This document shows positions 20,887 through 63,800 of a stretch of DNA of 64,000 nucleotides, piece by piece. Under the pieces are notes generated by a model. The model saw only the letters and a program-made list of their open reading frames with translations, was not told the DNA's origin and made no database searches. Every line of letters starts with the position of its first letter. The stretch's first letter is position 1. The stretch spans positions 142,010,580 through 142,074,579 of the forward strand of contig CP092863.1 of NCBI GenBank assembly GCA_030710605.1, in the 5' to 3' direction. The DNA comes from Cordylochernes scorpioides (lineage: Eukaryota; Arthropoda; Arachnida; Pseudoscorpiones; Chernetidae). The position numbers were made by a program, and so were the translations under genes.

Positions 20887-23800
20887 ATGAATCCTGAGAA
20901 TTTCAATCCTAAATCAAATATTAATGAGGATAGAAAATCGAATGCTGCTATATTTTCCTCCAGTCCATTTTTAAATATCAAAAGACTTGATCCAAATGCT
21001 TATACTATACTAGAAAAAAACTCTTTCACGGGCGGATGTACCTATTTAAAAAAATTACCAAGGCAAACAGAAGCCAAAATAAGTTCGCCTCCAAAAATCC
21101 AAGCAGAAGACCAAAGACTTCCATGTAGACCTTATCAAAAGGATGACCTATATACCTTAAGCAAGAGATTAAGAGAAAAAAATGCCCCTAAAGATTCATC
21201 ATCGTCAAACAGATTCAAGGTACTTATAATAAAATACTTCCCGTATTGTCCGATCAAGATTATTCAATACAATTTAATTCCCTAAGCGAAGGAAGATTTC
21301 ACCAGTTTCCCGAAGCGGATTATCTCGAATACGCTAAGAAAGAAATTATCCCAGAAGAAAGATCGTATTATTACAAAGAAAGAGAAGATACATTTCTTGA
21401 TCACCATCCATTCGATTCTTTAAGCGAAGGAAGACTTCACAAGTTTCTTAAGGAAGATTATCTTGAGTATTCTAAGAATGAAAGTCTTCTCGAAGAAAGA
21501 TCATATCCGTACAAAGGATATACCTCCATTGACCCACTTAAAATGGACGTTCATAAAGTTCCCAAAAGGAATTTGGAAAGACGATGGGATTTCACGAAAG
21601 AAGATGGCGAAAACAATGTCTTCAAAAATAAAAAAGGTCCGAAAGAAGTTTTAGACTCGGCACAGAGATTCGAGCCTCCAGAATCAACAAAAACGAAGAG
21701 GTATCCGAAATCGGCAAGTGAGAATTACTTTGTACCGGAAAAACAGAAACTTTTTGCAAGAAAAAGACTAGGGAACATCCTACGACAGCTCTTTCCCAAA
21801 TGGACTACAGATGTCAAACCAGTTTATTCTATGGTAGATCCCAGCTACGAGGACGATCCTCAACTAAGAAGTTATGAGGATTGGCAGCTAAAATACCTAT
21901 CCAACCAAAATATTTCTAATTATCCAGAAAAAGCAAATCAAGAGTGGTTGAACCAGCGTGAAAATGCCGTTTGTTATTATTTCCCTGATTCAGACCTATC
22001 ATCATGTTCAAGTTCCTGCGAATACCTTATATTCAAAAAATCCAATTTTCCTAAATCCATCTACAACCCAAGCCATCACATTCAAGAAAATTATCACAAG
22101 TATTTCATTAAACCCTCACCCAATTCTTCTTTAGAATCGGGAAAAAGCAAGCTGAAATCTAGACAACAAGCTAAATTTCTAGAATCAAATATTAGGCAGG
22201 GACATATTAAGCAAAACCTTGATGATGATACTATTCCCCAAAAAAGCCAAAGATCTAGAAAAATGCGGGACTTGGACGATTCTTTTCGAATTCAGTTTCA
22301 ACTAGTATCAAATATGCCAGATCACGACATTTCAAGACAAAGAAAATACACCGCTACAAGATTACCTTTTCAACTATCCGAAACAGTAATCATTGATAAG
22401 ATGATGGCAACGCAGGATTATGAAGAAGAATATATCCTACAAGAGAACTTTTCATACCCAAATTATGCCAAGACTGACGAACAATTTCAGATCCAAATTC
22501 TGAATAAGCCTCAGGTTTTTAAAAAAATGAAAGATAAGGTACCCTTCCCGAAAACAAGAAAAAGTACTAGTCATTTAGCAACCACTTCGAACAAATCGAA
22601 AGGTGAATCATCATCTAAAATCAAATTAGCAAGCGCTGCAGTGATAAAGAAAGAAAAAAAGGCCGAAAAACCAGACGAACAAGAAATTAAACGAGAAACG
22701 AAAGGAAGTAAGGAGCATCGAATTGAGCAGAAGAAATTAAAAGAATCGATTCCAAAGAATCCGCCTATAAAATCACAAAGAAAAAAAGATGAGGAAATTG
22801 GTGAAAGGAAAAAAGCATCGAGAAAAGACGTACCCCAAGTTGAACTAAAAGAAACTAAAGGAGATGAAAATAAAAAGAAACAACAAGTCGGTAAATCTAA
22901 AAAAGAATTAACAGAAATTAAGAATGACAAATTAGTAAAACGAGAACAGATGGGGAAGCTAACAGAAATTAGAGAACAATTTTATATAGAGCGGTTTGAA
23001 CATAAAAGGAAAACAGAAACTGATGGAATAGAACCAATTAAAGAATCCAAAAAGAAAGCAGAAGAAATTGGGTGGCGGGAACCAAAAGATATATCACAAA
23101 TGCCTGTAGACACACGCTTATATAAAAAGAAAATGAAAGAACAAAAGACAGCTCTAAAAGAACCATATCGACCAAAAGAAAATAAAATGGAGATAAAAAC
23201 AACTGAAATTTTAAATGAAGTTGGATGTAATAAATCTCAATGCGGTATAATAAGGAAGACAAAGGACATCGAAGTAAAAAAGGAAAAAATAGGAGAAAAG
23301 ATAAAGGAGAAACCAGATACACACAAATTTTTAAAAAGAAGGAAAGACGAAAAGAGGGAACCTCTATTGATTTGATTGAAATGAATAAAGCCAAAGAGAA
23401 AGAAAGAATGAAACAAGAAAAGTTCGAGCCTACAGATACGAAAAAAACACCATCACATAGGCCGAGCAAAAAAGGTGGTTTACAAATGAAGCGAGTGAAA
23501 ATAGAAGGTGAAGAAAAGAAAGAAGATGAAAATATTGAAAGAAAAACATTAGATTCCAAAGAAAAAAAGCATAAGCTTGAAAAAGATAAGTTAAAAAAGA
23601 AAATAAAGATAAGACAATGTATATTAGATACATTTGAACCTAAAGAAAGGAAAACGACAGGACGGGAATATAAAAACGAAGAGGAAAAAAGGAAATATTT
23701 GTTAGGGGAAAAAAGTAAAATCAAGCAAAGACAAATTTGTGAGTTGGAGGCTCTATCCGAATCATCTCAAACTTCCGACATGGCGATGGATTTAGAGGAA

Positions 23801-26395
23801 CAAAAATTTGAACCTGAAAAAACAGACGAACCCCGGAGAAAAACAACCAAAGAAGGACAAATGAGTGAACCCAAAAGAAAAACGACAGCATTAATGGAAA
23901 AACGAAAGGAAAAAATTAGTGAATTCAAGAGAAAATTGATCGAAATCACCTATGAAATTGAAGAGCAAAAAGAAGTGTATCAATTTGTAAATAAAAACAC
24001 AGAATGTGATGAAAAACGAAAAAGAGAAATGATTGAACTAAAGAAAAAATGCTCAGAAGCTAAGGTTATACAGAAAAAAGGCACCGATGATCCCAAAAGG
24101 AAAGCTATAGAACTTAAGGAAGATGAGGAAGAGGAAAGCTGTGGACTTACAGATGCAGAAAAAGAAGAAATCTGTGGAACCATAACAAAAACACTAGAAA
24201 TTAAGGATAAAGTAGAAGAAGAAACGAATGAACCAGATGCAGATAAATTCAAAGATGAAATAAAGGAGGAGATTTTTGAACTAAAAAAGAAACTAAAAGA
24301 AGTTAAGGAAGATCAAGAAGAAAAAATATACGAATTTAAAAAGAAGATGAAGGAAGTTGTGGAAAAGATCAAAGAAGAAATAACTGAACCCAAAAAGAAA
24401 TCGATAGATATTATGGAAGAACATAAATATTCAACATCCCAGGTAAAATATGCTGAGTTAATAGGTAGTAAAGAAATAGTTGAAAACGTAGTTGAACTTG
24501 AAAAGAAATCGTCAAAGATCAAAGACGACGAAGGAGAACTTACAAAGAAAACTTCAAAAGATATCGACGACAAAAAAGAAGAAATGCTCGACTCTAAAAA
24601 CAAAGTCACAACAGAAAAAGACGAAGAGGAAGTCTACATGCCCGAACATGTCAAGAAAAATATATGCCAATCGAAAGAAGAATTAGTTGAACCCAAAAAG
24701 GAAACGGCAGAACCCCAAACTATATTGACAGAAAATACCGAAAAAGAAGAAAAAACGGTATGCGAACCTGAAATAAAATTATCAGAAACTTCGTGCGTAC
24801 AAAATGAAGACGTATACGAACATGTAAAGCAGTCGAAAGAAATGAAGGATAAGCACGAAGATATATGTGAACTCACAAAGAAAACCTCAGACACTACAGT
24901 AATACAGAAAAAAGACATTTGTGAACCTATAAAGATACCGAAAGAAATAAAAGACGAGCATGAGGAAATATGCAAACCCAAAATGAAAACAGCTCAACAA
25001 GAAACCGAAGAATATTTGTATAGAGCTTTGCAAAAAATTTGTGAGGAAGAATATGGAATAGCTGACAGGAAACTACCACAAGAACCCATAGACAATATCC
25101 ATAAGCAGTTCGTAGAGCACATAGACATGTGTTTCGAAAGACCTTCTCGCAAGAAAGATATGGCACGAGAACTGGACAAAAATGCCACAAAACGTAAAGA
25201 AGAGCATAGAGATACATGTTTAGATTGGTCTTCCTTCAATACAGGAGGGGCACAAGAATCGTGTATGTCCAATAAGCGGAAAGAAGATCATAAATCCTTC
25301 GAAAGACCTTCTCGCAAGAAAGATTCAAAACAAGAACTGGATAGCTTCACTAAATATAAAGAAGACCATAGGGATACAAATTTTAAATGGTTTTCTTACA
25401 AGAAAGAAATAATGGATGAGAAACCATCAAAACGACAGGATTATCAATCCCGTCATTCAAGTATCAAAAAATCAGTAAGAACCACGGAAAAAGATTCCGA
25501 AATGAAGAGAAAGTCAACAAGACGCCAATCTTTCGTTTCAAACCCACATAAGTCACAAAAGAGAAATTTATCAATACCAGTTGGAGAAGAAAATGGCCCC
25601 TGGCCGATAAAAAACGATGTCATATTTGACATCAAAAGTGGTCCTGATAGGGAAGAGCCAAAATGTAACATCCTAACATCCTCTTCATATGTATTCAATT
25701 TCCAAAAACCTAACGACCCATCACCAACCTATCGGTCAAATTTGCAAGAATGTAAATTCCTTTGCTATCTACCCGAACAAGAACCTTTCTTGTTTAAAAC
25801 GAAGTCAATCGGCTTTCCTCTTAGTACGATGGAAGAATACGGATTAAAAAGAGATTCAAGAAAGCAATCCAAATATACTTATTATCCTATTTTCGCTATG
25901 AAACCACGTTTCCCATCAAAATGCAGTTTAGCATCCAATATTAATTTTACCCATGATACGATAATGAAAAAAAGCAATCTTTATAGAGGTTCAAGAACAA
26001 GCCAATGTGATCTCTCTACTTTTAGGCCGTCAGATCAATTTCAAAGAGTTCCTTTGGAATCTTGCACATCCTCCTCTTCTTCGGAAAACTCAGCCAGATA
26101 TTCTCCATATTCAAGAGGCAGTTTCCAAAGCTATTATTCTTCTTCGTACCTATATCCATTAAGTTATCTTTTAGATACAGAATTTTGTAGCAAACGACCG
26201 AATCCTCCTTCTTCTGCAGAAATCATAGCTTTAAGACAATCCAATTTTAATGGACCTTCAACTTCAAGATTAACACCAATTGAATCTCAAATGAACAATC
26301 CCTACGTGAATTACGAACTTACGGAAAGATTTAAAGAAATAGATAAAACGTTAGATCAAATGTGTGATATTATTTCAAAAAGAACTGACCAGTAA
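20887..26395 (+). CDS. Giant K/E-rich protein, unrecognised (two frameshifts)
   Basis: About 1,830 residues in three overlapping frames: ATG 20887 to about 21200, about 21200 to 23340, then about 23340 to TAA 26395. Both shifts are single-base-like and lie in A-rich sequence, so assembly error or real decay are both possible. The N-terminus is moderately charged; a repeat of about 44 residues occurs twice (SLSEGRFHQF, SLSEGRLHKF; 21270-21520). The middle 1,000 residues are Lys/Glu-rich with recurring EPKKK and ICEL-type steps, suggestive of long helices. A second duplication (ERPSRKKD twice, 25130-25390) precedes a Ser/Tyr/Pro-rich C-terminus ending in a short helix (ERFKEIDKTLDQMCDII). No known domain is recognised. 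Intronless structural, perhaps sperm-type, proteins look like this; that is inference. Confidence 0.75.
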
Positions 26396-37286: not shown

Positions 37287-40200
37287 CTGGACACAGAGAG
37301 AACATTTAGTGGTTTAGATATTGGGGTCCTTGTTGTGTAGAGGTTTCTTGTTTAAAACCAAATAACATAAGGTAATAAGACTAAATACAGGGGGTCAGTG
37401 GAAGGATGGTCTAAACAGCTGGTTTTTGACCACTACGACCCTGGTTCAATTCCCGAATTTGGCACTTTTTTTCTGATTTAAAAAAAAAAAATCTCCAATG
37501 GCCCCCGATTCTTGCAAAAGTTCAACCCTACCAGCAAGTGCAAGTAACCAAACGGGGCTCTGGCACATTTGTAAGTGCAAAGTTGAACTGTTTTTCACAT
37601 GTGTAGACACTTGGTGTACTTACAGTAAAAGCAGTTGCCAACTTCTACCCACTATGATTATCATGGCCTGTACCAAGTGTACTAGGAATAACAAAAAAAA
37701 AAAAACTAAATCCAAATAAATAAATGGTCTATTACCTTGTATTTCTAATCTATAATCCAAATTGTGCCTTATCATAAAAACCAGATAAATGAATAGTGTG
37801 CGGTGACATTTTGGTAACAGAGCATTGTTACTGAAACTCCACACACTATTTACTCTCATAGACAAAACTTAAGGAAGTTGTACCTTTTAGCAACAACAAC
37901 AAACAACAAAACAGCTTTATTAGGGCATCTTGCCCTGTACGGATTCTCCGTGGAGTTACAGACAATATTAACCATAAGAGAACAGGTGAAAATATAGTAT
38001 TTACAGTCAAGGTATGTCAAACAGGGTGACTTTTTATTGTGCCCCTGTTCTTCTCTCTTCCATGAGTGCAATTTTATTCCCAACCGCTTTTTGAAAGTTG
38101 AACAGTTCAATTGCCCAACTTTTCTTATCTGAAACAGTTTTTATTAGCTTTATTGAGTTCAAATGCGGTCTAGGAAGACTTTTCAGGATCTTTTTTCTCT
38201 CTCCTTCCAGATCCCCGCATTCGGCAATAAAATGGTATATTTCATCAGTTATCTGACTTCCACATAACCCACAGTACAAATCTTCTTTCTTAATTGCGTA
38301 AATATGATTTTCTTTGATCATTGTTGACATTAATCTGATCTGTGCAATAAAACTCACTAAAGCTGAAGACAGATAGCATGAAAAGTAATTTTCTGGAATA
38401 AATGAATCATAAAGTAACCTATAGTTTGAGTATGTTTTCGTAAGAGATAATTTTGCCAGATCTTGCTGCAATAGCTGTTCAATTTTTATTTTTAGTATAT
38501 TCGGAAGTTCGATCTGTATGTCATCATAATTTAACCTATAGTTTAGCCATGTGAGTCCACAATGATTGATGATATCCATAATATTCTTACAGAATCCTAT
38601 AGGTTTTTTTGTCATTAAGGAAATTTCCTTCAATCTATTCCAGCATAGCTTAGGTAGTCTATTGTCTTCCATTTTTTGTAATCTAATGAAATATTTCAAA
38701 TTAATTTGATCGTTGTAAAAGTCAAAGATATTCTGCCTGTTTCCAGCCTTACAATGTACCCTGGTATATATCTTGGTAGATTCAGAAAATTTTTGATAAA
38801 CGTATTCTGTAATTGGTCTATAATATCCGTATTGTCCCAAGCCCACACAGGGGCCGCATAGAGCAGTATTGATTTAATAACTGAGTCAAATAGATTCAGA
38901 GCAACTTTTAATGAGTTAATTTTTTCTTTTTTTATCAGTCTAATAGCTGCATTTATTGCCGTATTTGCTTTGGCTTTATAAAAGAGGGCTACCTTTTTAC
39001 TATTAATAGTGGAAGTGAATGGATATCCCAGATATGTAATATTGGACGCAACAGTCAGTGGGGTGTCACCCCAGTACCAGTTTTCGTGTCTTGCCGGTCT
39101 TCCTCCATTTCTGAATACTATTATTTTGGACTTATTTTCATTTAAAACTAATTTGTTCTTATCCAGGTAAGACTTTAGTAAATTGATTTTAATTTGAAGA
39201 TTAATTTTCGATTCTCCAATTATGGCTATGTCATCCGCATACATAAGTAGGTGTAAAACGCCAAAATCAGGGAGATGAAATCCTGTAAGTGCTGAGTTAT
39301 TATAAAGTTCTATTAGGTCGGCCATATATAGTATAAATAAAAGTGGGGAAAGTGATTCTCCCTGCAACACTCCAGAATTAATTTTCACATTATTTGAATA
39401 TTGTCCTTTCCATCGGATAGTGATCTTAGCTTCTTGGTAAAAGTTTTTTATCAGCATTACAAATTTATTGCTAATGCCCATTTTATGCAATTTTTGCCAA
39501 AGTAAATCATGTGGGACTGTGTCGAAAGCTTTAGTCAAATCGACGAAGAAGACATATAGCTTGCCTCGTTTTCTTCTCAGAGATAATTGGATGAGTGAAT
39601 TCAGTAGTATTATGTGGTCAGTGCATGATCGGTTCTTACGGAAACCTGCTTGGTTTTCTAAAATAATCATTCTTTTTTCTATCCAGTTGTTTAATCTGTT
39701 CTTAGTATTGTAGTAAATAATTTAGATATATTACTGCAGAGGGCAATCCCTCTGTAATTTGTTGGGTTATTCTTATCACCGCTTTTATATATAGGGTGTA
39801 CTATTGAGTTCGTCCAGAGTTGCGGGTATTTTTCTGTGGACATTATTTTGTTGAATAGGTTTTTCAATTTATTTAAAGTCGGTATTGGTAAATTCTTTAG
39901 CAACTCATTTGGTATACCATCGAGTCCCACTGCTTTGCCGTTCGCTAGTTTTTTTACTACATCATGGATCTCTTCAAGGGTTATTTCCGCGTCTAAATCT
40001 GGATCTTTCCAACCGATCATCTGGTTTACCGTAAAAGTAGCTTCTTTATTTTCTTTGTTCAGTAAATTTTTATAAAATAAAAACCATTCTTTTATATCAA
40101 TCTCACCTTGTATTATTGGTTTTTTTCTGAAGGATGCAATGGCATTCCAGAAGGATTTGGGATCTTTGGCGTTTTTTTATCCTTTCATTCTTGTCCTTAT

Positions 40201-43200
40201 TGAATTCATCTCTTTTTCTTTGCAGGAGCTTAAAATATTCCCTCCTAGCCTCAATATATTTTTGGCGGTCGTGTATGTTATTTGAGTTCCTACATCTTTG
40301 TAAACTTACTTTGGTCGTTTTTTTCATAATATAGCAATCTTTGTCATACCAAGGTTTTGAAAGTTGGTGTCGTCGTTTAGCAAATTTAATTATATTTGCC
40401 GATTCCATTGCCGTGTAGATCTGTTTAGTAAAATTTGCTGTTTCTGTGTTAATATTGGTTTCATTTCCAACTTCAATATCACTTAAATTATGTTTTAGCA
40501 TCTCCACATTTTCTTTCGTCCAAATGAATTTTCGTGTTAGTATTTCATTTTTGTACGAGGATTTAATAGCTTCATACCCAGTATTAATTTGTAAAACAAT
40601 TGGTAAGTGGTCTGAATATGAAAGTTCTTCGATCCACATATCCGATATGATCTGTGTTAAACCGTGTGTGTACATGAAATAATCCAAAACCGATGAACCT
40701 CTTTCTGAAATAAAAGTGAATGAGCCGTGCGTGTCACCCTTAGTTCTTCCATTAGCTATTGTTATAGAATTTGAATCAGTGAAGGAAATTAGTTTTTCAG
40801 ATAGTTTCGAAGATATTAGGTCTTTAGATTTCCTATATTTGTTGAGGGGTGAATTTAGTTTCAGTGGGTTATGGAAGCCTCCAGCATTGCCTATTCTAAT
40901 ATTGATGTCACCAGCTATTAGTACTTCGTTACCTTCACTCATGTGATAATCAATATGCCTAAGTAAATTTGTTAAATTTTGTTCTTGTAATGCATTAGGA
41001 GGTAAATAAGCAAACAGCAAACATATACTCTCGGTGGTTTTGTCTAGAAATTTGTGTGTCAAGACAGATATCCAGTAAGGGTTTGTTTCGATTTTTCTAA
41101 CCGTATGTTGGAAGTTTTTTTTTTATTCCAATCAGAATTCCCCCCGAGCCCCTTCCCTTTAGTTCTGTCTTCATTGCTGGGCTTTGAATTATGTAATATT
41201 CATCAGTTAACAATTCAATAACACCAGTGATCCATGTTTCATTTAGTGCAAAAAGTTCGTATTTTTTTTAGGTATTCAACGAGTGGAAATATTGATGTTA
41301 TTCTATTGAATCCATTTATATTCCATTGTAATATTTTAATTTTAGTATCTATATGTTTGGCCTGAGTTACTTGTTTGTCTTTTATTGCCGATTCACAGTT
41401 TTTCGTATGTGTATACCTAATTTTAGTTGTATTTCTATCTGATATATTATCCATAGCCTTTGAGTTTTTAATTTTAGAAGTTTTAGCCGTGAGTGTTTTA
41501 TCATAAAGTGGCTGTATGGACATTGTATTAGAGATCAGTTTATCAATGGGTTGACTATTTACAAGTGATTGTTTCCTATCTGCCTGCTACAATGAATGTC
41601 CATTGGCATCTACAATTTGTCCATCACAGACCTTATATGCTATGCCATTAATTATTAACTTATTGTCCCTTAGCTTAGCTAGAGTACCTTTTTCGACGAG
41701 TTCTCTTCTTTTGACATTCAGAACGCGTCGTTGTTCTCTCATCTTCATACTATAGTCCTTCGATAGTGAAATCTTAGTTCCTCTTAGATTGAAAGCAGCT
41801 TTGAATAGAGTTGTTCTATCGTTTTGTTCTGGGACTTCAACCAGGATCGGTGCACCAGGTTTTCTGGATACTCGGTGGCATCGCGTGATGTTTATCTTCT
41901 CCGTTGTCCGCATATTTTCTTCGATAACCCTCCGTATCCGTTCTCGGCAGTCCTCGTTAATGTCTTGTTCTATTCCGTAAAAAATAAGGTTCCTTTCTCT
42001 GCTCTTTGCATCCAAGTATTCAAGCTGGTCTTCTAAGTCTTTTATTTTTTTGGAGTTTTGAGAGAGTGCTGCCTTTGTAACGGCAGAAGATTCCTCTAAT
42101 TGTTGCAGTCTTTGATTTATATTTCTACTCTATCGTCGATTGCCGAAAAAACGGGATTCCAGCCTCTCACCCCAGTTATCCAGCCTTTTGGTGAGTGCAT
42201 TTATCAGATCTTTGATCTCTTTATCCCTATCTAAGCTTGTTTCCAACGTCGTTTGTTTGGACATCCTAGGGCCTGGATTTTGTTCAAATACCAGCTAATA
42301 CCAAGAGCATTAAAACTACACATATAAGGAGAAAGTTTCGGAAATATTTTGAAAGTGAAATATTGACGCGTGATAAGCAAATCTTTTTGCCGCCGTATGT
42401 ATCTGGCTTGAAAGTATGTAAATTTAACTCAGAATTCTTGTCTAATAGACATAAAATTATGATGGTAAGATATATTGGATATGAAGGTTTCATTTCAGAT
42501 ATATTGAGTTTGAACTTTGGCAAAAATAGAGGAAATATTTTAGTAAGACAGTTCACTTACCGAGAGCGACGTTGCTTGCAGCCTATTCGTGCCGCCTCCT
42601 AGCGGAGAATCCCCACCTTTTAGCATATATATGGGGATTCAGACAATATTGTAGCATTTGACCATTGATCACCGTTTTGCAGCAACATTTTAAAATAATG
42701 CGCCAGTTATCTTTAGCCCCTCGATCAGGATACACTGTGACATGGGTTATATATTTGCCTGGAGCAAATTCATAAAAAGTGCAAAATCACATTGTAAAAG
42801 GTTTCTTTTGAAGAAACAAAAAAAAAAAAACATAATTTAACATGTTGTGTCTCAACTACAACCCCTCCTGAAACCAGCCCGACAAGACCCGGGGCTCTAC
42901 AACCTTCCTGGACCGAACCATGAAGCAAAAATTAGACAATGCATTAGTGACCATGGTCCACTCAAATGAAAGGGAACTTCCCCAAATAAACCCCTTGAGC
43001 CTTACATCCCCGCCTCTGTCTCATCCATATTAAAGACAAAGGGAGAAGAAAAAGAATACAAAGCTTCAAAACTCAAGAACACAAAGCTCCAAAACTCAAG
43101 AATACAAAGCTCCAAAACTCAAGAATACAAAGCTTCAAAACTCAAGAATACAAAGCCCCAAAACTCAAGAACACAAAGCTCCAAAACTCAAGAATACAAA

Positions 43201-46200
43201 GCTCCAAAACTCAAGAATACAAAGCTTCAAAACTCAAGAATACAAAGCCCCAAAACTCATGAATACAAAGCTCCAAAACTCAAGAATACAAAGCTCCAAA
43301 ACTCAAGAATACAAAGCCCCAAAACTCATGAATACAAAGCTCCAAAACTCAAGAATACAAAGCTCCAAAACTCAAGAATACAAAGCCCCAAAACTCAAGA
43401 ATACAAAGCTCCAAAACTCAAGAATACAAAGCTCCAAAACTCAAGAATACAAAGCTCCAAAACTCAAGAATACAAAGCTTCAAAACTCAGAATACAAAGC
43501 CCAAAACTCAAGAATACAAAGCTCCAAAACTCAAGAATACAAAGCTCCCAAAACTTAGGAATACAAAGCCCCAAAACTCACCTTTTGGGAAGTAGTAAGC
43601 TCTAGTTCCATCTTGCCTCACATAGAAATTCTCAGATAACTTATGGCCAGGTTTGAAACGAAGCATAGCTTGATCATAGAGTCCATAATCTCTGAAGCAG
43701 ACACGTCCCCCAGGCCGCAGGACTCTGTGGATGTTGCGCAGGGCGACGGCCATCTTGTCTGGATGTAGCGCTGAGAGGACAAACACCAGAGTGGCCAAGG
43801 CAATGGTGCCAGGCTGGATATGTTGGCTCAGACTGTCCTCCTGGGAGATGTCGCACACAAAGGCCTGGCACTTCTGGATGTCGTAGAGAGGATTGCTCTG
43901 GACCACAGAGTGATTGTCATGCTTGTGTGCTGAATGGGGTATTAATATCATTGGTAGGGACTTGGTGGGTGGGTGAAATCTAATTCTGATTACAGTAGAA
44001 CATCCATGAGAGGACACCTCTCAACGAAATGAAAGAATTAAAGCGCAGATATTTCTTTTACACATAAAACAAACTTCTACTGTCCTTACTGCGATGAAAA
44101 AATATATTGGGAGGGCTTGGTTCATTAGTGGTGAACCCTCCCCCAGCATTTTCGCCAATTTAATCTACCAGACAGCTTCTCAGAGATCTAATACTGTATT
44201 GGATGATTCTGCTTATATATGCTACACTGAAGGGTGGAATCTTAGAAATGGTATTTAAGCAAACTAAACTTATGTCCATAGTTTGCTTGAATACCATTTC
44301 TAATATTCCACGCTTCAGTGTAGAATATATAAGTAGAATGATCCAATACAGTATTAGATCTCTGAGAAGCTGTTTGGTAGATTAAATTGGCGAAAATGCT
44401 GGGGGAGGGTTCACCACTAATGAACCAAGCCCTCCCAATATATTTTTTCATCGCAGTAAGGACAGTAGAGAAAGTTTGTTTTATGTGTAAAAGAAACATT
44501 CATGCTTTAATAGTGTTCATTTCTAAGACATGTGGTATACTTGCACTGAAAGCAGTCATTAACTACCCACCATGATTATCATGGCTTGTACCATGTTTAC
44601 TAGGGAGAGATATGTATCACTATCATCATAGATAACCTACAAAATAAAAGGATTTAAAGCGCGAATGTTTCTTTTATACATAAAACGAACTTCTACTGTC
44701 CTTACTGCGATGAAAAAATATATTGGGAGGGCTTGGCTCATCAGTGGTGAACCCTCCCAGCGGTTTCGCCAATTTAATCCACCAGGCCGCTTCTCAGAGC
44801 TCTAATACTGTATTGGATCATTCTGCTTTTATATGCTACACTGAAGGATGGAATCTTAGAAATGGTTTTCAAGTAAACTATGGACATAAGCTCATAGGAC
44901 AGTAGAATTACATTCGAATATTTGCTTCGAACAATGCTCTTCAGCAAACTATAAAGACAAGGCCATTAGGGATAAATTAACACAAAGCAATAACGCGCCA
45001 TCTATACATATAAAATAAAAGGATTTAAAAGCGCGAATGTTTCTTTTATACATAAACCGAACTTCTAAAACGAACATAGATAACCTACACAAAGAAGAAA
45101 AAAACAGGAAAAATAAATCTCTGAGGCTGACACCTGGTGACCATGGAGGTTGTTTCGACCCGGCTATCTCCCCTTTTTCTTGTACTTCCACATAAGCCAT
45201 TTTATTTATATATTATTAAATATTATGACATATATATCTATATTAATAAAATGGAAATTTCATAAGTGTTGTTCACTAAAAACTTTCGTTACAATGCATC
45301 AATTTCGACCAAATTTTCAACATTTATGTAAAACGAGATGGAGCAGGTTTTGCTTAACATCAAAATATTTTTCCTAACTTTAACATACATAACTTTGCTG
45401 TTATCGATAAAATACAAAAAAATTCAACAGAGTTAAAGTGTTTACACTTTCAAAAGTGTTTACACTTTAGCGCTTCTTTGAAAATTAGTTTTAATCTTTT
45501 TTATATATATTTTAATAACTTTTATACATGGTAAGATACTTTTATTTTATAGTTTTCATATTTTATACAAAAAAAAGTTGAAGCCTTACTTGATGAGATC
45601 AATTTTATTTTTTAGATAAATTTTTAGGCTTTTCGAAAGTGTTTACACTTTTGAACTTCTTGGAAAATTAGTTTTAATCTTTTTTATATATATTTTAATA
45701 ACTTTTTATACATGGTAAGATACTTTTATTTTATAGTTTTCATATTTTATATCAAAAAAAAGTTGAAGCCTTACTTGATGAGATCAATTTTATATTTTAG
45801 ATAAATTTTTAGGCTAATTTTAATTTATTTCTTTTTATTTTATATACAGATTATATATGCTATTTCTAACTTACGTGGTTAGTATTTTTATAAGACTAAG
45901 GTTATTTATATTATTTTTTACAAAAAAAGATTGAAATTTCATTAATGTGCTCAATTTTATGTCTTTTTTGAGGACCTTAACAAAATTTTAAATTAATTGT
46001 TTAGATATTTTTTAATAACAGATTATTTATGGTGTTTTCCACTTATATGGGTTGTTTTGTAAAAAAAAATTTGGGTTATTTCTATTTTTTTTTTCACTAA
46101 AAAGCTTGAAATTTCATTAATGTGCTCAATTTTATGTCTTTTTTGAGGACCTTAACAAAATTTTAATTAATTGCTTAGATATTTTAAAAGTAGATTATTT

Positions 46201-50367: not shown

Positions 50368-51555
50368 TGAATTTAATATATTAATATATGATAAAAATAT
50401 ATATATAGATATAAAACTTCGATTGAGAAAACTATGTTAATTTATGAAAAAACGTTTATTTTTATTTGATGTTGTTTACTATAAACAGAGTTGCTTTTTC
50501 AACGAAAATATTTATAATAAATAATTGACAAAAATAGGCTAAGCTCCTTGAGTTGATGTCGTTCAAACGCGCTAATAAAACGAATAAAAATAAATTAATT
50601 TATATTGTGGCAGAATTAGAATTTGGGTGAAGCGGCAGCTCAAGCCTTTCTAAACCCCCCCCCCCCCCCCCCCCCCTGATCAACCTTAATTCTTGTTGTC
50701 CATTGTCCCCATAACACCATAACATAGGGTTAAAGGATTTGTTAGGTTTCCGATATTTAAATGAGAACATCCGACCACGAACAGATCTGACCATAGCAAT
50801 GCAGGGATATCTTGTAAGAGCTGGTTCTCTCACTTGGATCTGGAGGGCACAAAGGTTCAAATAGACATAGTCTAAAGTTTGGCTTTGGATGACGCTCTTG
50901 TAGGAGCCTGATGGAGAAAGAGAGTCCTATTATTTAAATTATAAATATTTTATTATTTATTTATTTCGTCTCAATTTACAGGTGTTACATTCAAGCACAG
51001 CTCGCGAGTCACCTTGTCCAGGCTATTTACACTTGACGAGTTGGTGGAGTAAAGGTGGTCTCCGACCTTGCAGGAGGGAATATTTTATTATTTTTATTGG
51101 GTAAAATATAAATAATCATCAGTGTTTTCAATTTTAATTCTGAAATTGTTAAAACACTAGCTATTTAAAACTAAATTTTAAATTTTTACTCTTCTTCTTT
51201 GCAGACTTCATAATGAATACAAATATATATATGAAGGCTTTTCTCATTGTAAGAATATATTTTGTAATTTTAAAATGTATAGGAATATATGTCTTAAGTA
51301 ATAAAGGCTTTTGTGTGTGCTAATTAGCTAATTAAATTAATAATACATCTGAATATAAGTTGTGTGAGAGAGAATTAAACATTTTAGTGTCAAAAATTAG
51401 CTAATTTTTGATAGCAAACCGCAAGTAATATGGAAATTAAGAATTAAGTAGCGATTCTTACTAATTCAAAGGATGATATACAACTCCAAAAATCAATAAT
51501 AGGAACTTTTTTTACATAAAAATGTGCTAAAGGGCTACCCATAGTCATTAAAAAC
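50368..51555. other. Intergenic between METTL6 and the LINE
   Basis: Contains the METTL6 promoter side, a run of 22 C (50655-50676), and unassigned GC-richer stretches at 50600-50890 and 50960-51085. The minus-strand open frame at 50600-50860 is not recognisable. Confidence 0.5.
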
Positions 51556-51657
51556 AGATTCGCCGCTAGGTGGCCGGACAATAAACAACACGTGCAGCAC
51601 CGCTCCGGTAAATATAGTTTATATTACTAATATTTCAGTGTATATTTGCCTTATACT

Positions 51658-52617
51658 ATGAAAGGGATAATACTGTCACTCTTAGTACTCGTGTTATGCA
51701 ACAATAAATATGCAAATTTACTCAAGGTAACGCACTATGCAAAAAACTCAGTACGAAGGGATAATGATAGACAATGTGGCCTAAATATAAACTTACCATC
51801 TGGGAATATATCTGGTAACCAAAAAAGACTGCTATGTATCATTCTGGCTCTATTATTTATCTCAGGCATTGAACAAAACCCAGGCCCCCCAACCAAAAAG
51901 CAAACTACTTTGACTGCGTCAGTACACTCAGGAGAGAGAGAATCAATAGATGGCGAGCTAAAAATGCTAATCTTGAACATGGCGACGGAAATAAAGAGTC
52001 TAGGAGAGAGAATTGACATCAGACTTACCAAAATAGAGACTCGAATGGACGATTGGGATAAGCGATTCTGCAATATAGAGGAGAAGCTAACCAAATGTAT
52101 AGAGTCTCAACAGGCTACCGAAAAACTGGCTTCATGTAATTCGTTAAAGGTAAATGAACTGGAGGCTAGAGTCGAATTTTTTGAGACGAGACTGCGTGAG
52201 CCCAATCTAGTGTTCTATGGTATTGAGAGGGAGGGTGACGAAAATCAGGCAGATTGCAACTTAAAGATTCAAAACATAATTAGAGATAAAATGGAAATCG
52301 GAGATGATATAAAAATAACAAAATGTCACCGACTTTCACGCGGATCCAATGCACCAGTTCTTGTTGTGGTGCCTGATTATGCTGATAGAGCAAAAATATT
52401 TAAAAATGCCTACAAACTCAGAGATACTAAAATTTCGATAAGTAAAGATTATAGTAAAAATGTTAGAGAGCAACGGCGCATCCTAATTGCAAAAAGGAAA
52501 GAATTGGGTGAAAGGGGAATAAAATCGAAGTTGAGAGATAACAAGCTTTTGGTAAATGATAAAGTCTGTAAAGTGATGAATGGCCAAGTTGTTGATAGCA
52601 CAGGAGTTGCTATATAG
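51658..52617 (+). CDS. LINE ORF1 protein with 2A-like motif
   Basis: 319 residues ending in TAG. Residues 2-18 and about 55-69 are hydrophobic; GIEQNPGP at 70-77 follows at once. Next come a coiled-coil stretch (about 100-175), an RRM-like domain (NLVFYGIEREGDE, ITKCHRLSRGSNAPVLVV, LRDTKISISKDYS) and a basic C-terminus (REQRRILIAKRKELGERG, KSKLRDNKLLVNDK). ORF1 proteins of this type bind the element RNA and form trimers. The motif resembles 2A peptides that make ribosomes skip the Gly-Pro bond, but Gly stands where Asp is usual. The first ATG, at 51658, starts the hydrophobic segment. Confidence 0.9.
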   Translation: MKGIILSLLVLVLCNNKYANLLKVTHYAKNSVRRDNDRQCGLNINLPSGNISGNQKRLLCIILALLFISGIEQNPGPPTKKQTTLTASVHSGERESIDGELKMLILNMATEIKSLGERIDIRLTKIETRMDDWDKRFCNIEEKLTKCIESQQATEKLASCNSLKVNELEARVEFFETRLREPNLVFYGIEREGDENQADCNLKIQNIIRDKMEIGDDIKITKCHRLSRGSNAPVLVVVPDYADRAKIFKNAYKLRDTKISISKDYSKNVREQRRILIAKRKELGERGIKSKLRDNKLLVNDKVCKVMNGQVVDSTGVAI

Positions 52618-52620
52618 CAA
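52615..52620 (+). promoter_or_regulatory. Candidate stop-codon readthrough site (TAG CAA)
   Basis: ORF1 ends TAG, and the next codon, CAA, begins an uninterrupted stretch in the same frame through ORF2. There is no ATG between here and the endonuclease core. The other copy has TAG CAG at 41584-41589. CA(A/G) after TAG is part of a known leaky context. Confidence 0.6.
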
Positions 52621-55600
52621 AAACCTTGTAGAAACAATTGTGTAAATAGAAGAAATACGACATCAAAATCACAAATTAATTCTCCGCCCCATAATCAAAT
52701 AACGGAAAGTTACTACGACATAAATACATGTAAATATGATTCTCAAGACGATGACAATGCAAATTTTTCTGAAAATTCGCGAGACATCGCCGAAAAAATA
52801 ATATGTTGGAATATAAATGGTTTCTATAGGATTCTTTCGATATTTCCACTCCTCGAGCACATAAAGAACTACGAAATTTTTGCTCTACTTGAAACATGGT
52901 GCCTGAACAGGACTAACATAACACTAAAAGATTATCAAATTATCGAATTACCTGCCACCAAAGAATCTGGAAGGGGAAGAGGGTCAGGGGGTATAATTGT
53001 CGGTTTTAGGGAAGGCGGGAAATATAGAGTAGAGAGTTCTGAAAAGGATGGCACTTGGTTATCTATTTTCTTATCAACAAACACAAGAGCCCCTCAACAT
53101 GTTATCTGTTTAATATTTGTATACCTTCCTCCAAACCAAATACAGCTGCATAACTTAGATAAGCTGTTTACATACATTCAAAAGCAAATAGCAGATGGAA
53201 AAGAAATTATTTTACTTGGAGATTTAAACATCAGAACTGGGAAGTTGGGAGGACTACACAATCCACTTAATTTCCAGCTCCCTCTAACATCGGAAAGAAG
53301 GGCTAAAGATCATATAATATCATCTCTGTCTAATAAACTTCTTGATTTCCTGGAAGATAATTCTTTGACAATAGTTAATGGAAGATCTAGAGGTGATAAA
53401 GATGGAGATTTTACATACATATCCGAAAGAGGCTCTTCAACTATTGACTATTGCATACTCTCACAGGGTTCACTACAAATTTTACTGGACTTCAAAGTCG
53501 ATGACCAACTGTACTCAGACCACCATCCTTTGGTTTTAACGATAAAAGGCCAAAACTTCAATGAGAAAAAAACCAAACGGGAAGATTATAATATTACGAG
53601 ATATAGATGGTCAGCCGATGGACTCGCAACGTTTAAAATGAAACTGGAAGAATTGCGGGAAAAAAACATACCAGCCTCCGATGACCTTGTATACACTTTC
53701 AATCAGCGAATTTTGGAAGCAATGTCATCTGCAAAAATAACCTACTCAATTAAGGGCGGCCCCAGGAAATCTAAGCCGTGGTTCGATAAGGACTGCTATG
53801 ATATGAAAAAACTGGCAAAAGAAAGTCTGAAGAAATATCGTAAAACAAATAGATTGGAAGACAGAGAATGTTATGCTTCTTCCAGAAAGAAATATCTTGC
53901 TTTATTGGATCTAAAAAGGAAAGGCTTTGATAATGAAAAACAGGAAATACTCAGAAATGCTAAAGACTCAAAGACCTTCTGGAAAACTATTGCGCTCTAC
54001 AAAAGCACATCTATAATCCAAGGAGAAATATCTATACAGGACTGGCTGAACTTTTACCGCGAACTAATGACTACAGAGAAAAATTTGAGAATTTGTAATT
54101 TACATAATGTGATTTCTCAGAACGATCCTATATTGGACTCAGAGATAACCAATGCAGACATATACAAGGAGATAGCTGGTTTGAGGAGTAACAAGGCATG
54201 CGGGCCCGATGGCATCCCCAATGAAGTATTAAAAACACTCCCTGATTCGTACATACTGCTGTTGAAACAACTCTACAATAGTGTTATGACGACTGGAAAA
54301 TACCCAGCAATTTGGACTAATTCCACTATACACCCAATCTTTAAAAACGGTTATAAGAACAGCCCCTCCAACTACCGAGGTATTGCACTGATTAGCAATG
54401 TATCAAAGCTTTTCACATCAATCCTAAGATCACGACTGGAGGAATGGGTCGAAGGAAGAAGGGTTATACCCGAAAACCAAGCGGGATTTAGAAAAGAAAG
54501 ATCATGTATTGACCACATATTTACACTAACTACTTTAATCCAACTATCATTAAGAAAAAAGAGGGGAAAACTATATGTCTTTTTTGTCGATCTAAGGAAG
54601 GCATTTGATACTGTACCCCACTCACTACTTTGGAAAAAACTTTACAACCTAGGCATAAGTTACCAATTCATAAGTACGATCAAAAGTTACTACGAACAAG
54701 CAACTATAGCTATCAGATGGAAGGGATCATTTACGGAAAGTATTAAGATAAACTCGGGAGTCCTCCAGGGAGAACCACTTTCCCCACTGCTATTTATATT
54801 ATTTATCACGGACTTAATCGAAATTTATAATAACTCAGACCTGCCGAGTGTAAATTTGCCAGAATTTGGAGATATCCATTTATTGCTGTACGCCGACGAC
54901 ATAGCAATTATAGGTGAGTCCAGGATAAACCTCCAAAAGAAGATCAAAATACTGAAAGAATATCTCGATGAGAACTTAATGACACTAAATGAGTCCAAGT
55001 CAAAGATTATGGTGTTCCGTAATGGAGGTAAACCCTCAAATAAGGATAGATGGTTCTGGAATGATAAACCCATAGCAATAACTTCAAGATATACATACTT
55101 GGGATTCCCTCTGACACCAACAATAACAACTACTCACCCGGCAAATTACTTTAAAGGAAAAGCACTTACAGCAATTAACGCCACACACCCAATATTAATA
55201 AAATCAAAAGCAAAGTCAATAAATTTATCAATCAAACTCTTTGATACAATAGTGAGAGCTGTCCTGACGTATGCCGCTCCATTATGGGCAACAGAGCATA
55301 AAGACTTACTGGACAATATACAAGACATATTTATCCGTAGGTTCCTGAATCTGCCCAGATACACTCCAGGTTACCTAATCAGATTAGAAACCGGTCGTAT
55401 CTCATTGAGTGTAACAGCCTTAAAATTAACCCTGAAGTATTGGCTGCGGGTGTTGAATATGAGCAGTGACAGATTGCCACGTATATGTTTTAATAGAACA
55501 CGGGAACTCTCTAATGCTTCGGGCACACCCATCGGTTTCATTAAAAAGCTCACTAATCTGCTTAACGATAATGGATCCCCTGCACTTGTTTCCTGTGATG

Positions 55601-56070
55601 ACCCTGAAACGCTGAGGAGCGCGATTACAGGGCTCTTAAAAACAGCGGCAGACCAATCTATACAAAACGACCTTACAAGAATGGATAAATCTAAGCTATA
55701 CTCTCACTACAAAGACATTCACATATCTTTCATGACGGAGGGATACCTTTTAGGGGATTTTCCTTTCCCGGTTGTAAGACTACTCGCACAAGTTAGAATA
55801 CTTTCAAGTTTTTTTAGAGAAAACCACACCAAGATGCTCTGCGGCGAGGACCCGACTTGTACCTTCTGTAATTCAAAACTACAAAATGAAATCACTCACT
55901 ATATTTTTGATTGCTCTGCTCTGAAAGAAGAAAGAAGAACCCTTATGCTCAAAACTGGGCAACTCTGTGCTTCACTTCCATCAATAATTGACAATATGAC
56001 CCAGAATAAGTATATTGCTACGGCGTTTTATGGTTTCCACAAGTCCATATCTCAGAAGAAGGCCAAGTGA
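52618..56070 (+). CDS. LINE ORF2: endonuclease, reverse transcriptase, zinc tail
   Basis: 1,150 codons in frame with ORF1. The endonuclease domain has WNINGF (about 52808), FALLETW, FVYLPPNQ, LLGDLNIRTG, GSSTIDY and YSDHHPLVL, the metal-binding and catalytic set of an apurinic-type nuclease that nicks the target. The reverse transcriptase has [59 protein letters not shown] (54889-54900), NESKSKIMVF and YTYLGFPL. The tail has C-x2-C ... H ... C (CTFCNSKLQNEITHYIFDC). No stop or shift is visible, so activity is plausible. The start is unclear: readthrough or reinitiation is needed. Confidence 0.93.
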   Translation, partial: QKPCRNNCVNRRNTTSKSQINSPPHNQITESYYDINTCKYDSQDDDNANFSENSRDIAEKIICWNINGFYRILSIFPLLEHIKNYEIFALLETWCLNRTNITLKDYQIIELPATKESGRGRGSGGIIVGFREGGKYRVESSEKDGTWLSIFLSTNTRAPQHVICLIFVYLPPNQIQLHNLDKLFTYIQKQIADGKEIILLGDLNIRTGKLGGLHNPLNFQLPLTSERRAKDHIISSLSNKLLDFLEDNSLTIVNGRSRGDKDGDFTYISERGSSTIDYCILSQGSLQILLDFKVDDQLYSDHHPLVLTIKGQNFNEKKTKREDYNITRYRWSADGLATFKMKLEELREKNIPASDDLVYTFNQRILEAMSSAKITYSIKGGPRKSKPWFDKDCYDMKKLAKESLKKYRKTNRLEDRECYASSRKKYLALLDLKRKGFDNEKQEILRNAKDSKTFWKTIALYKSTSIIQGEISIQDWLNFYRELMTTEKNLRICNLHNVISQNDPILDSEITNADIYKEIAGLRSNKACGPDGIPNEVLKTLPDSYILLLKQLYNSVMTTGKYPAIWTNSTIHPIFKNGYKNSPSNYRGIALISNVSKLFTSILRSRLEEWVEGRRVIPENQAGFRKERSCIDHIFTLTTLIQLSLRKKRGKLYVFFVDLRKAFDTVPHSLLWKKLYNLGISYQFISTIKSYYEQATIAIRWKGSFTESIKINSGVLQGEPLSPLLFILFITDLIEIYNNSDLPSVNLPEFGDIHLLLYADDIAIIGESRINLQKKIKILKEYLDENLMTLNESKSKIMVFRNGGKPSNKDRWFWNDKPIAITSRYTYLGFPLTPTITTTHPANYFKGKALTAINATHPILIKSKAKSINLSIKLFDTIVRAVLTYAAPLWATEHKDLLDNIQDIFIRRFLNLPRYTPGYLIRLETGRISLSVTALKLTLKYWLRVLNMSSDRLPRICFNRTRELSNASGTPIGFIKKLTNLLNDNGSPALVSCDDPETLRSAITGLLKTAADQSIQNDLTRMDKSKLYSHYKDIHISFMTEGYLLGDFPFPVVRLLAQVRILSSFFRENHTKMLCGEDPTCTFCNSKLQNEITHYIFDCSALKEERRTLMLKTGQLCASLPSIIDNMTQNKYIATAFYGFHKSISQKKAK

Positions 56071-56319
56071 TACTCACTCCTCACTTTCTTACTGCTACTA
56101 TTTTTTTGTTGATTTCTTGCTTCCCTCTTTCTTATTATTATTTTTTTTTTTTTTCCTTTTCTTGTTTTTTTTTTTTTTTTTCTTTCTCTTTTTACTCTGT
56201 ATATATCGCTATTTCCGTTGTCTCACTGCTTTGTTCTTATGCATACCTCTGGTGAATCCTGTATAGGGTCAGTGACCCTAAATAAAGGCTTTTTTGTTGT
56301 TGTTGTAGTCATTAAAAAC

Positions 56320-61644: not shown

Positions 61645-63800
61645 ATGTCTTCATCAAAACCAAGTGGCAGTAAAACTAAACGAAAAATTACTGACGAACA
61701 TAGGAATTTTCAAGAAAAGTGGGAATTAGAGTATTTTTGCTCTGAAGTAAAAGATAAAATCATCTGCTTGATATGTAATAATGCTATTAGTGTACCAAAA
61801 TTATATAACATTAAACGTCATTATGAACAACATAAATCAAAATATGATACCTACGAAGGTTTAATGAGACAAGAAAAGTTAAAAGAGTTCAAGTTGGGAA
61901 TGAAAAAACAACAGTTTATGTTTACTAAATTATCACAAGAGAGTGAAATGGCGGTGCATGCAAGCTACGTTTTATCGGAGATGATAGCTAAACACTCAAA
62001 ACCTTTTACTGAAGGTGATTTCATCAAGGAATGTTTAATTAAAGCTGCAGAAATTGTTTGTCCTGGAAGTGTGAAGACGTTTCAAGCAATATCTTTGTCT
62101 CGAAATACCGTTGTGGAAAGAGTTACTGATATGGCCAGAAATTTAAATGATCAGATAAAAGAAAAATCATCTTGTTTCGAAGCATTTTCCATTGCCTGTG
62201 ATGAGGGTACGGACATTGGGGGCGTAGCTCAGTTAGCTGTTTTTTTTTGAGCTTGCGACACGGATTTCAACATTTTTGAGGAATTATTGGAACTAGTACC
62301 GATGCATGGCACTACTACAGGAGAAGATATATTTAATTGTGTTTATGATCTTCTGCAAAAATACAATTTACCTCAATCAAAATTGACTTCTGTAGCAACA
62401 GATGGAGCTCTTTCAATGACTGGAAAAACCAACGGTTTCGTAGCATTACTGCGAAAAAAACTAAGTGAAATTTCTGATGGTTCCAATATTCATTATACGC
62501 ATTGCATTATACATCAGGAAGTATTATGTACGAAGGTAATAAAAATGGAAAATGTGTTGACACCTATCAAAAAATTCATGGGGGGTCGGTGGAAGGCTGG
62601 TTAAACCGTTTGGTTTACGACCACTACGACCCGGGTTCGATCCCCGCATTGGACACTTTTTTTCTGTTAAAAAAAAAAAAAAAAAAATGCTCCAATGGCC
62701 CCCGATTCTTGCAAAAGTCCAACCCCACCAGCGAGTGCAAGTAACCAAACGGGGCTCTGGCACATTTGTAAGTGAAAAGTCGATCTGCTTTCACATGTGT
62801 AGACATGTGGTGCGCTTACAGTAAAAAGCAGTCGCTAACTACCCACCATGATTATCATGCCCTGTACCATGTGTACTAGGGATAAGCAAAAAAAAAAATT
62901 CATCAATTTCATAAGATCTCGAGGTTTAAATCAGCGACAGTTCTCTCTGTTCTTAACTGAATTAGAAAGCGGATATTCAGGTTTATCATACTATACCGAG
63001 GTACGTTGGCTATCATGCTCCAAGGTTCTCAAACAATTTTGGGACTTGAAAGAAGAAATATGTCAGTTTTTAATAACCAAGAATCAAGACATCACTTTGT
63101 TTTCTGATCAAGTATGGTTGCAAGATTTTTCCTTCATGGTTGACATAACAAAACACTTGTCGGATTTAAATTTGAAACTGCAAGGAAAGGATCAGATCAT
63201 TACCAACATGTGTGACCAAGTTAATGCATTCAAATGTAAGCTAGTTCTTTGGGAAAAGCAGTTGAAAAACGAAGATTTAATGCACTTTCCGACATGCAAC
63301 ATGTACAAATCAAGTTTAGGTGAAACTGCATCGTATCAAAAATATGCTGAAAAAATTTTAAGTCTTAGAAATGAATTTGAAACAAGGTTTTCTGATTTCA
63401 AATCTTTGGAAGGCAAGTTTACTTTGTTTTCTTCGATTTTCTCGATAAATATAGAATCAGTACCTAATCATATGCAAATGGAGGTAATAGATATCCAGTG
63501 CGATTCAGATTTAAAGGCAAAATTCATTGAAGTTGGCATTTCTTAAATTTCCAAAATTTGCCAGCCAGATTTGAAAACACTCGAAAATTAGCATATGAAA
63601 TTATGTCCATGTTTGGAAGTACTTATCGGTGCGAGCAGTTATTTTCACTTATGAAAGGAAATAAGTCTCCAATCAGATCGAGAATTACTGACGTTCACCT
63701 TGGGTCAGTTTAAAAATTAATCACTGCGAACAAGATTTCCCCCGAAGTAGGAAAGATGGTAGCAGAAAAGAGATGCCAAATATCAGGGAGAAAATATTTA
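61645..63800 (+). pseudogene. hAT transposase, GTF2IRD2/ZBED-like, copy 2
   Basis: The first 200 codons are intact (BED zinc finger, CLICNN; MKKQQFMFTK), better than in copy 1. The frame is lost in the T run at 62241, regained at 62287, cut by a SINE at 62580, resumed until about 63546, then shifted; a TTA-to-TAA change near 63711 stops the dimerisation segment, and the original final stop is lost. The breaks differ from copy 1 in part, so the two have decayed separately since duplication, while the SINE is shared. Confidence 0.9.
62580..62889 (+). mobile_element. tRNA-derived SINE inside hAT copy 2
   Basis: Same insertion as 4343-4654. Flanking duplication aaaaattcat (62570-62579, repeated after the A tail). 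Confidence 0.9.

Follow-up and report, generated by a model that had tools for sequence, protein, structure and literature searches.

A conserved in-frame UAG between ORF1 and ORF2 as a candidate readthrough site in LINE families of Cordylochernes scorpioides

Even for human LINE-1 (L1), the translation of the second open reading frame (ORF) in a long interspersed nuclear element (LINE) with two ORFs is poorly understood. A full-length LINE of the pseudoscorpion Cordylochernes scorpioides raises this question in a readable form. It lies in a stretch of 64,000 nucleotides, here called the window (GenBank assembly GCA_030710605.1, contig CP092863.1, positions 142,010,580 to 142,074,579 of the forward strand), and its ORF1 and ORF2 share one frame that is interrupted by a single UAG. 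Comparison of this junction across related families of the same genome suggests that the ORF2 protein (ORF2p) is probably made by programmed readthrough of the UAG, as an ORF1p-ORF2p fusion. This explanation is favoured because the frame is shared, the linker between stop and endonuclease is open, an AUG is missing in most families and the UAG-C(AR) context is conserved.

Frame, linker and stop context at the ORF1/ORF2 junction

The window element, assigned to family A, is a LINE of the apurinic/apyrimidinic endonuclease (APE) type with an L1-like ORF1. It is a full-length insertion flanked by a target-site duplication (14-bp repeat at 51542 and 56306). Beyond the ORF1 stop its frame is open from 52618 to 56067 and closes with TGA at 56068. 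The translation contains PF03372 at residues 64-302 (52807-53523), PF14529 at residues 163-305 and PF00078 at residues 580-831, all above the curated cut-offs, and matches human L1 ORF2p with an E-value of 1.1e-25. A previous sequence-only reading of the window had reported that ORF1 ends in TAG CAA at 52615 and that the frame stays open for another 1,150 codons through endonuclease and reverse transcriptase (RT), and the ORF and Pfam reading confirmed this. All 40 scored family A copies, out of 758 candidates, were identical over a 371-bp stretch spanning the junction.

A copy of a second family, B, is present on the minus strand of the window. The same frame leads from its ORF1 through TAG CAG into the start of the endonuclease and is shifted near 41260. 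In the sister copy L047 the frame is unbroken over all 499 codons that were retrieved beyond the TAG. The TAG CAG at 41589-41584 and the frame of the ORF2 start had been described correctly; the description of the two window elements as independent copies was not upheld. They represent two related families, 42% identical in ORF1, 40% over the first 499 ORF2 codons and 59% in RT, with linkers that differ by frame-keeping indels, and each has many near-identical copies. Among the family B matches to the ORF1 end, 150 of 150 scored (of 4,417 candidates) were 98-100% identical, and TAG CAG GCA GAT was read at all 30 B loci, which had been selected on ORF1 and not on the junction. Judged from these copies, families A and B are both recent. 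The near-identical A and B matches were picked by similarity and are thus little informative on selection.

Further families were found by a stepwise walk: LINE fragments beside A copies were located, protein searches were made with their ends, and short stretches were fetched. Loci were hand-picked from four similarity-ranked lists (10, 20, 20 and 20 of 150 matches, respectively). Among the ten loci of the first list only L077 and L079 reach ORF1, and the other eight were left out of the junction counts. The ten families are labels for clearly distinct junction types in the window's own genome rather than a full census; family D, represented by a single fragment of the ORF2 end (L025), has no junction. 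Counts were made locus by locus, an automated fuzzy-anchor tally having given false matches at five or six errors. The stops of L143, L147 and L149 were read directly from the bases, and L149, which breaks off before the endonuclease and may belong to G or H, was counted as H. A search with PF14529 (150 scored of 24,195 candidates) led to L069-L074, which are other LINE types with other layouts and stand outside the counts. An RT profile run against viral_contigs and genome_contigs gave 61 and 50 pattern-matching stretches, respectively, without a confirmed relative, so that all evidence comes from one genome.

ORF2 is open in seven families (A, B, C1, C2, F, G and H). One representative copy of each was read, and in all seven ORF1 and ORF2 share a frame, which runs on past the UAG into a functional domain. 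From stop to endonuclease motif the linkers measure 63 (A), 87 (B), 113 (C1), 56 (C2), 35 (F), 79 (G) and 40 (H) codons, each length in nucleotides being divisible by three. None of the seven contains an in-frame stop, while each other frame contains 1-18 stops. The fraction of shuffled sequences with an open frame was 0.005 for A, 0.0005 for B, 5e-5 for C1, 0.009 for C2, 0.09 for F, 0.002 for G and 0.1 for H; taken by themselves, F and H do not reach significance, and as the families are related the values are not to be multiplied. Over the fetched copies the linker was open in 28/30 (B), 3/7 (C1), 4/6 (C2), 11/11 (F), 4/4 (G) and 8/10 (H) cases. An in-frame ATG is missing from the linkers of A, C1, C2, F, G and H; the exception is B, with two at codons 21 and 44. 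The earlier statement that no ATG precedes the endonuclease is accordingly right for A, where the first one lies at 53638, and wrong for B.

The shared frame has also been kept in two recombinant families. C2 combines a C-type ORF1 with an F-type ORF2, and G combines an H-type ORF1 (94% identical) with an A-like ORF2, its endonuclease start being 67% identical to that of A and 45% to that of H. The recombinant copies are L094, L097, L100-L102 and L104 for the former and L117-L120 for the latter, in which a remnant of the H endonuclease start is left in the linker.

Families E and I have a dead ORF2, and an in-frame linker stop was found at 8/8 E and 14/14 I loci. It is placed most often after 26 codons in E (5/8) and after 18 codons in I; the single J locus is likewise closed after 18. 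Such closure would be expected if linkers were held open only in elements that need ORF2. The ORF1-bearing copies with a dead ORF2 (L085-L092; L122, L123, L126, L132-L140, L145 and L146; L143) resemble half-LINEs. Family E has an ORF1 frame of 384 codons and many equal-score matches, and may be young.

The junctions of the ten families (stop and next two codons) read as follows: TAG CAA AAA in A; TAG CAG GCA in B; TAG CAA or CAG, then ATA, in C1 (7 loci); TAG CTA ATA in C2 (6 loci); TAG CAA ACA in E (8 loci); TAG CCA CTG at ten F loci, with TCA at one, and TAG ATA in one old relative of F; TAG CAA CCC at three G loci, the fourth having TTG in place of TAG; TAG CAA CCC in H (10 loci, one cut off before the endonuclease); TAG CAA at 12/14 I loci, with AAA at two; and TAG CAA GCT in J (1 locus). 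CAR (CAA or CAG) is thus the codon 3' of the stop in A, B, C1, E, G, H, J and most of I. Leaving A and B aside, 62 junction loci were counted, in which TAG occurs 61 times, C at +4 58 times, CAR 42 times, CTA six and CCA ten times; the CAR that had been noted after the stop is therefore common without being universal. Neither TAA nor TGA was met at any of the 62 loci. A change from TAG to TAA is a single step that is harmless to plain termination. ORF2 itself closes with TGA in A and with TAA in B and in the fragments of C and D that were read.

Seven divergent ORF1 lineages (A, B, C1, E, F, H and I, with F entered as its majority form) were compared around the stop. Their C-terminal domains are 44-72% identical. 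TAGC (+1 to +4) is present in 7/7, positions +5 and +6 agree in 6/7 and positions +7 to +15 in 3-4/7; CAR directly follows the stop in six of the seven. As a yardstick taken from these ORF1s, third bases of four-fold codons are the same in 85/208 pairs with an identical residue, and third bases of K/E/Q codons in 137/243, with G throughout in 1/13 K/E/Q columns. Over the initial 150 nt of the linkers, 46/1,015 positions carry CAR, and C makes up 20%. TAG, CAR and frame are hence largely conserved over neutral expectation, and random stops, differing frames or a conserved in-frame ATG were seen at none of the sampled junctions.

Type I readthrough motifs consist of UAG followed by CARYYA and are thought to act at the level of primary sequence, as described in the accessible part of PMC3542737. 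In human cells and a CARYYA context, readthrough is much more efficient at UAG and UGA than at UAA, and each of the six CARYYA bases had an influence in the OPRL1 context (PMC4132726, excerpted text). By its letters, the present junction can be classed as a partial type I context.

Several observations weigh against readthrough. The full CARYYA was found in no lineage, YYA being missing at +7 to +9, in agreement with the previous remark that only the CAR part is present; moreover, family F has UAG-CCA and C2 has UAG-CUA. The yeast consensus CARNBA, as quoted in the excerpts of PMC4132726, agrees with the junctions of B, C1 and E; those of A, C2, F, G/H, I and J do not conform to it. Nested folds of 118-120 nt from the stop showed no unusual stability in five families (z-scores -0.58, 1.08, -0.16, 0.65 and 2.05, none below -0.6), pseudoknots being outside the model. 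Conserved positions also lie outside the stop context: columns -26, -12, -2 and +30 are likewise invariant in the seven lineages, and -1, +16, +20 and +28 are among the columns at 6/7. Families E and I retain TAG-CAA despite their dead ORF2, and part of its conservation may therefore reflect recent inheritance. Linker stops also occur in decayed copies of C, B and H, and the two ATGs of the B linker could be used by reinitiation. Finally, the families share ancestry and the loci were hand-picked, so that the counts are not independent draws, and no combined probability is given.

Other routes to ORF2 expression

The strongest rival to readthrough is AUG-independent termination-reinitiation, which we nevertheless regard as unlikely. 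The ribosome would stay on the RNA after the UAG and restart on a non-AUG codon at or just after the stop, and ORF2p would be a separate protein. For ORF2 of human L1 an unusual initiation that does not depend on its AUG is assumed, according to the available passages of PMC5972666 and PMC5009743, and an open linker would be expected if the restart took place close to the stop. A common frame of ORF1 and ORF2 is not needed for such a mechanism, yet it is present in 7/7 families with an open ORF2, the two recombinants included. Reinitiation also leaves unexplained why UAG was kept over UAA. No codon common to all seven lineages was found after the stop in the junction alignment, though no search was aimed at near-cognate start codons. 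Programmed readthrough, the reading preferred at the outset, appears supported by this comparison, and reinitiation appears weaker, as it needs no shared frame.

Far less probable is that an in-frame ATG of the linker serves for reinitiation or internal entry. Family B offers two such codons, and Zorro3 of Candida requires the ATG of its ORF2 (PMC1965478, as far as the accessible text goes), but the linkers of the other six families lack one, and in A the first in-frame ATG is found only beyond the endonuclease.

We give just as little weight to a drive by fused copies, in which rare stop-lost copies would supply ORF2p in trans and the TAG copies would be passengers. Two stop-lost copies do exist. 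In family B copy L106 (C7:55435940) TAG is changed to CAG, which gives a fused frame of 1,506 codons, and in family G copy L117 TAG is changed to TTG, with a fused frame of 1,091 codons. Frames of fused length are rare in the sample, however (1/150 B matches and 1/4 G loci), whereas under cis preference stop-less source copies should be common.

Least credible is a removal of the stop in the RNA, by splicing or by adenosine-to-inosine editing of UAG to UIG, which is read as Trp. The RNA that a LINE reverse transcribes is mostly the one from which its proteins were translated, as is known for L1, and an edited or spliced message would for this reason be written into new copies, as TGG or as copies without the stop. 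TGG was found at 0/62 loci outside A and B and at 0/30 B loci, and the only variants seen at the junction stop are the TTG of L117 and the CAG of L106. In favour of such a route, UAG editing can substitute for readthrough (PMC3542737, excerpted text). Chance was rejected, since TAG and frame recur across divergent families, and so was an altered code with UAG as Gln, there being no other in-frame UAG in ORF1 or ORF2 of the window element and a UAG at the same place in ten families.

ORF1p, the 2A-like motif and other features of the window

The predicted model of family A ORF1p (mean pLDDT, the predicted local distance difference test score, 59.7; built from two sequences) comprises a long helix followed by an RNA recognition motif (RRM)-like and a C-terminal domain. 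With this model as Foldseek query, the top eight matches in the PDB were all human LINE-1 ORF1p, with 2yko, 2ykp, 2ykq, 2ldy and 2w7a among the best. The best E-value was 2.3e-6 and six of the eight were below 0.001, at query-normalised TM-scores of only 0.23-0.28. Pfam and PDB sequence searches with ORF1 did not find an L1-like identity. On the strength of the model, ORF1p is predicted to contain coiled coil, RRM and C-terminal domain as in human L1 ORF1p.

Near its N-terminus, after a hydrophobic stretch, ORF1 encodes the 2A-like motif GIEQNPGP, which was also found at the ORF1 N-terminus of families B (L047) and F (L105). Compared with the 2A motif D[V/I]ExNPGP, as given in the accessible part of PMC4981915, I, E and NPGP are present and G takes the place of D. 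If active, the motif would represent a second recoding event in the same LINE message. As a tentative extension, which we would sooner doubt than assert, the lineage might make its RT only as a fusion, by programmed UAG readthrough coupled with a StopGo-like 2A at the other end of ORF1; these two recoding events would have evolved in parallel with retroviral Gag-Pol, with a trimer of L1-type ORF1p as Gag.

Features of the family A and family B elements in the window
Feature	Position	Strand	Basis or remark
Full-length family A LINE, 4,750 bp, with (TTG)n tail	51556..56305	+	Bounded by 14-bp direct repeat
Target-site duplication, 5' copy, 14 bp	51542..51555	.	Direct-repeat comparison
Target-site duplication, 3' copy, 14 bp	56306..56319	.	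Direct-repeat comparison
Family A ORF1, 319 aa from the element's first ATG	51658..52617	+	ORF reading
2A-like motif GIEQNPGP near ORF1 N-terminus, after hydrophobic stretch	51865..51888	+	
Family A UAG stop between ORF1 and ORF2, proposed readthrough site	52615..52617	+	
Family A CAA codon (CAR context) directly 3' of the stop	52618..52620	+	
Family A linker, 63 codons, open in the ORF1/ORF2 frame only, without in-frame ATG	52618..52806	+	
Family A ORF2, 1,150 codons plus TGA, endonuclease and RT	52618..56070	+	Pfam
First ATG in the family A ORF2 frame after the stop, downstream of the endonuclease	53638..53640	+	ATGs listed between the stop and 53681
Family B copy, C-terminal part of ORF1 to its TAG	41587..42129	-	
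Family B UAG stop	41587..41589	-	
Family B CAG codon after the stop	41584..41586	-	
Family B linker and frameshifted ORF2 fragments of the window copy	38034..41583	-	

Apart from these elements, the window contains minisatellite arrays that read as protein repeats (370-1398 and 42970-43605). Each adjoins a similar minus-strand ORF (1280-1735 and 43508-44020, respectively), which looks methyltransferase-like. Two long, overlapping K/E-rich ORFs of 727 and 1,053 codons are located at 21192-26395. Near both ends of the window lie near-identical transposase-like ORFs in opposite orientation, at 3663-4397 (minus strand) and 62839-63546 (plus strand); they are presumably hAT/ZBED-like.

Proposed mechanism and its relation to known systems

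That readthrough occurs, at what rate, and how the fusion is used are what we infer from the sequence features described above. A ribosome ending ORF1 would usually terminate at the UAG and release ORF1p. In a small fraction of cases the UAG would be decoded by a near-cognate tRNA, aided by the following C and usually a CAR codon, and the ribosome would continue in frame through linker, endonuclease and RT. The product would be a rare ORF1p-ORF2p fusion, a Gag-Pol-like arrangement in a LINE. Through its coiled coil the fusion might bring a single enzyme-bearing chain into an array of many ORF1p chains on the RNA that encodes them, much as Gag-Pol joins Gag, with the rare chain entering ORF1p trimers on its own RNA. 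Such an arrangement would set the ratio of ORF1p to ORF2p and favour action in cis.

Among the titles listed on LINE translation, 2A and readthrough motifs, with subscription papers mostly absent, none deals with stop readthrough as the route to LINE ORF2; a precedent may exist. The junction resembles type I readthrough sites of tobamoviruses and others in its UAG, in CAR in six of seven lineages, in the in-frame polymerase extension and in that no downstream structure was found. It differs from them in that YYA (+7 to +9) is missing in all lineages and that it belongs to a genomic LINE, read from its sequence alone, and not to an RNA virus. With gammaretroviral Gag-Pol (type III) it shares a UAG between a structural RNA-binding protein and RT in one frame. 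Unlike there, no stable nested fold was found (pseudoknots were not modelled), +4 is C and not G, and the element is a target-primed LINE without long terminal repeats.

Among LINEs, human LINE-1 is alike in the ORF1p fold, as judged from the predicted model, and in having an APE endonuclease and RT. In L1 a 63-nt spacer lies between the two ORFs, and an unconventional reinitiation has been proposed for ORF2 (PMC5972666, available passages), whereas the present LINEs have one frame, one stop and no usable AUG in 6/7 families. SART1 is a further case of translational coupling between two LINE ORFs. It relies on an overlapping stop/start UAAUG and a downstream structure, as far as the excerpts of PMC5972666 and PMC5902531 describe it; neither was found here, and no ATG coincides with the stop of A, B or C1. 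LINEs with 2A (StopGo) are alike in the 2A-like motif near the ORF1 N-terminus; relative to the 2A motif in the source text available, the present LINEs have G in place of D, and they have the conserved UAG junction in addition.

This lineage thus offers a case of second-ORF translation that can be read from sequence: the same frame, no AUG in most families and one conserved UAG. If programmed readthrough is indeed used, a target-primed retrotransposon would have adopted a Gag-Pol-like strategy, and a conserved UAG-C(AR) context would be at work in a multi-family genomic element and not in an RNA virus. Action in cis and the ratio of ORF1p to ORF2p would then be explained in one step.

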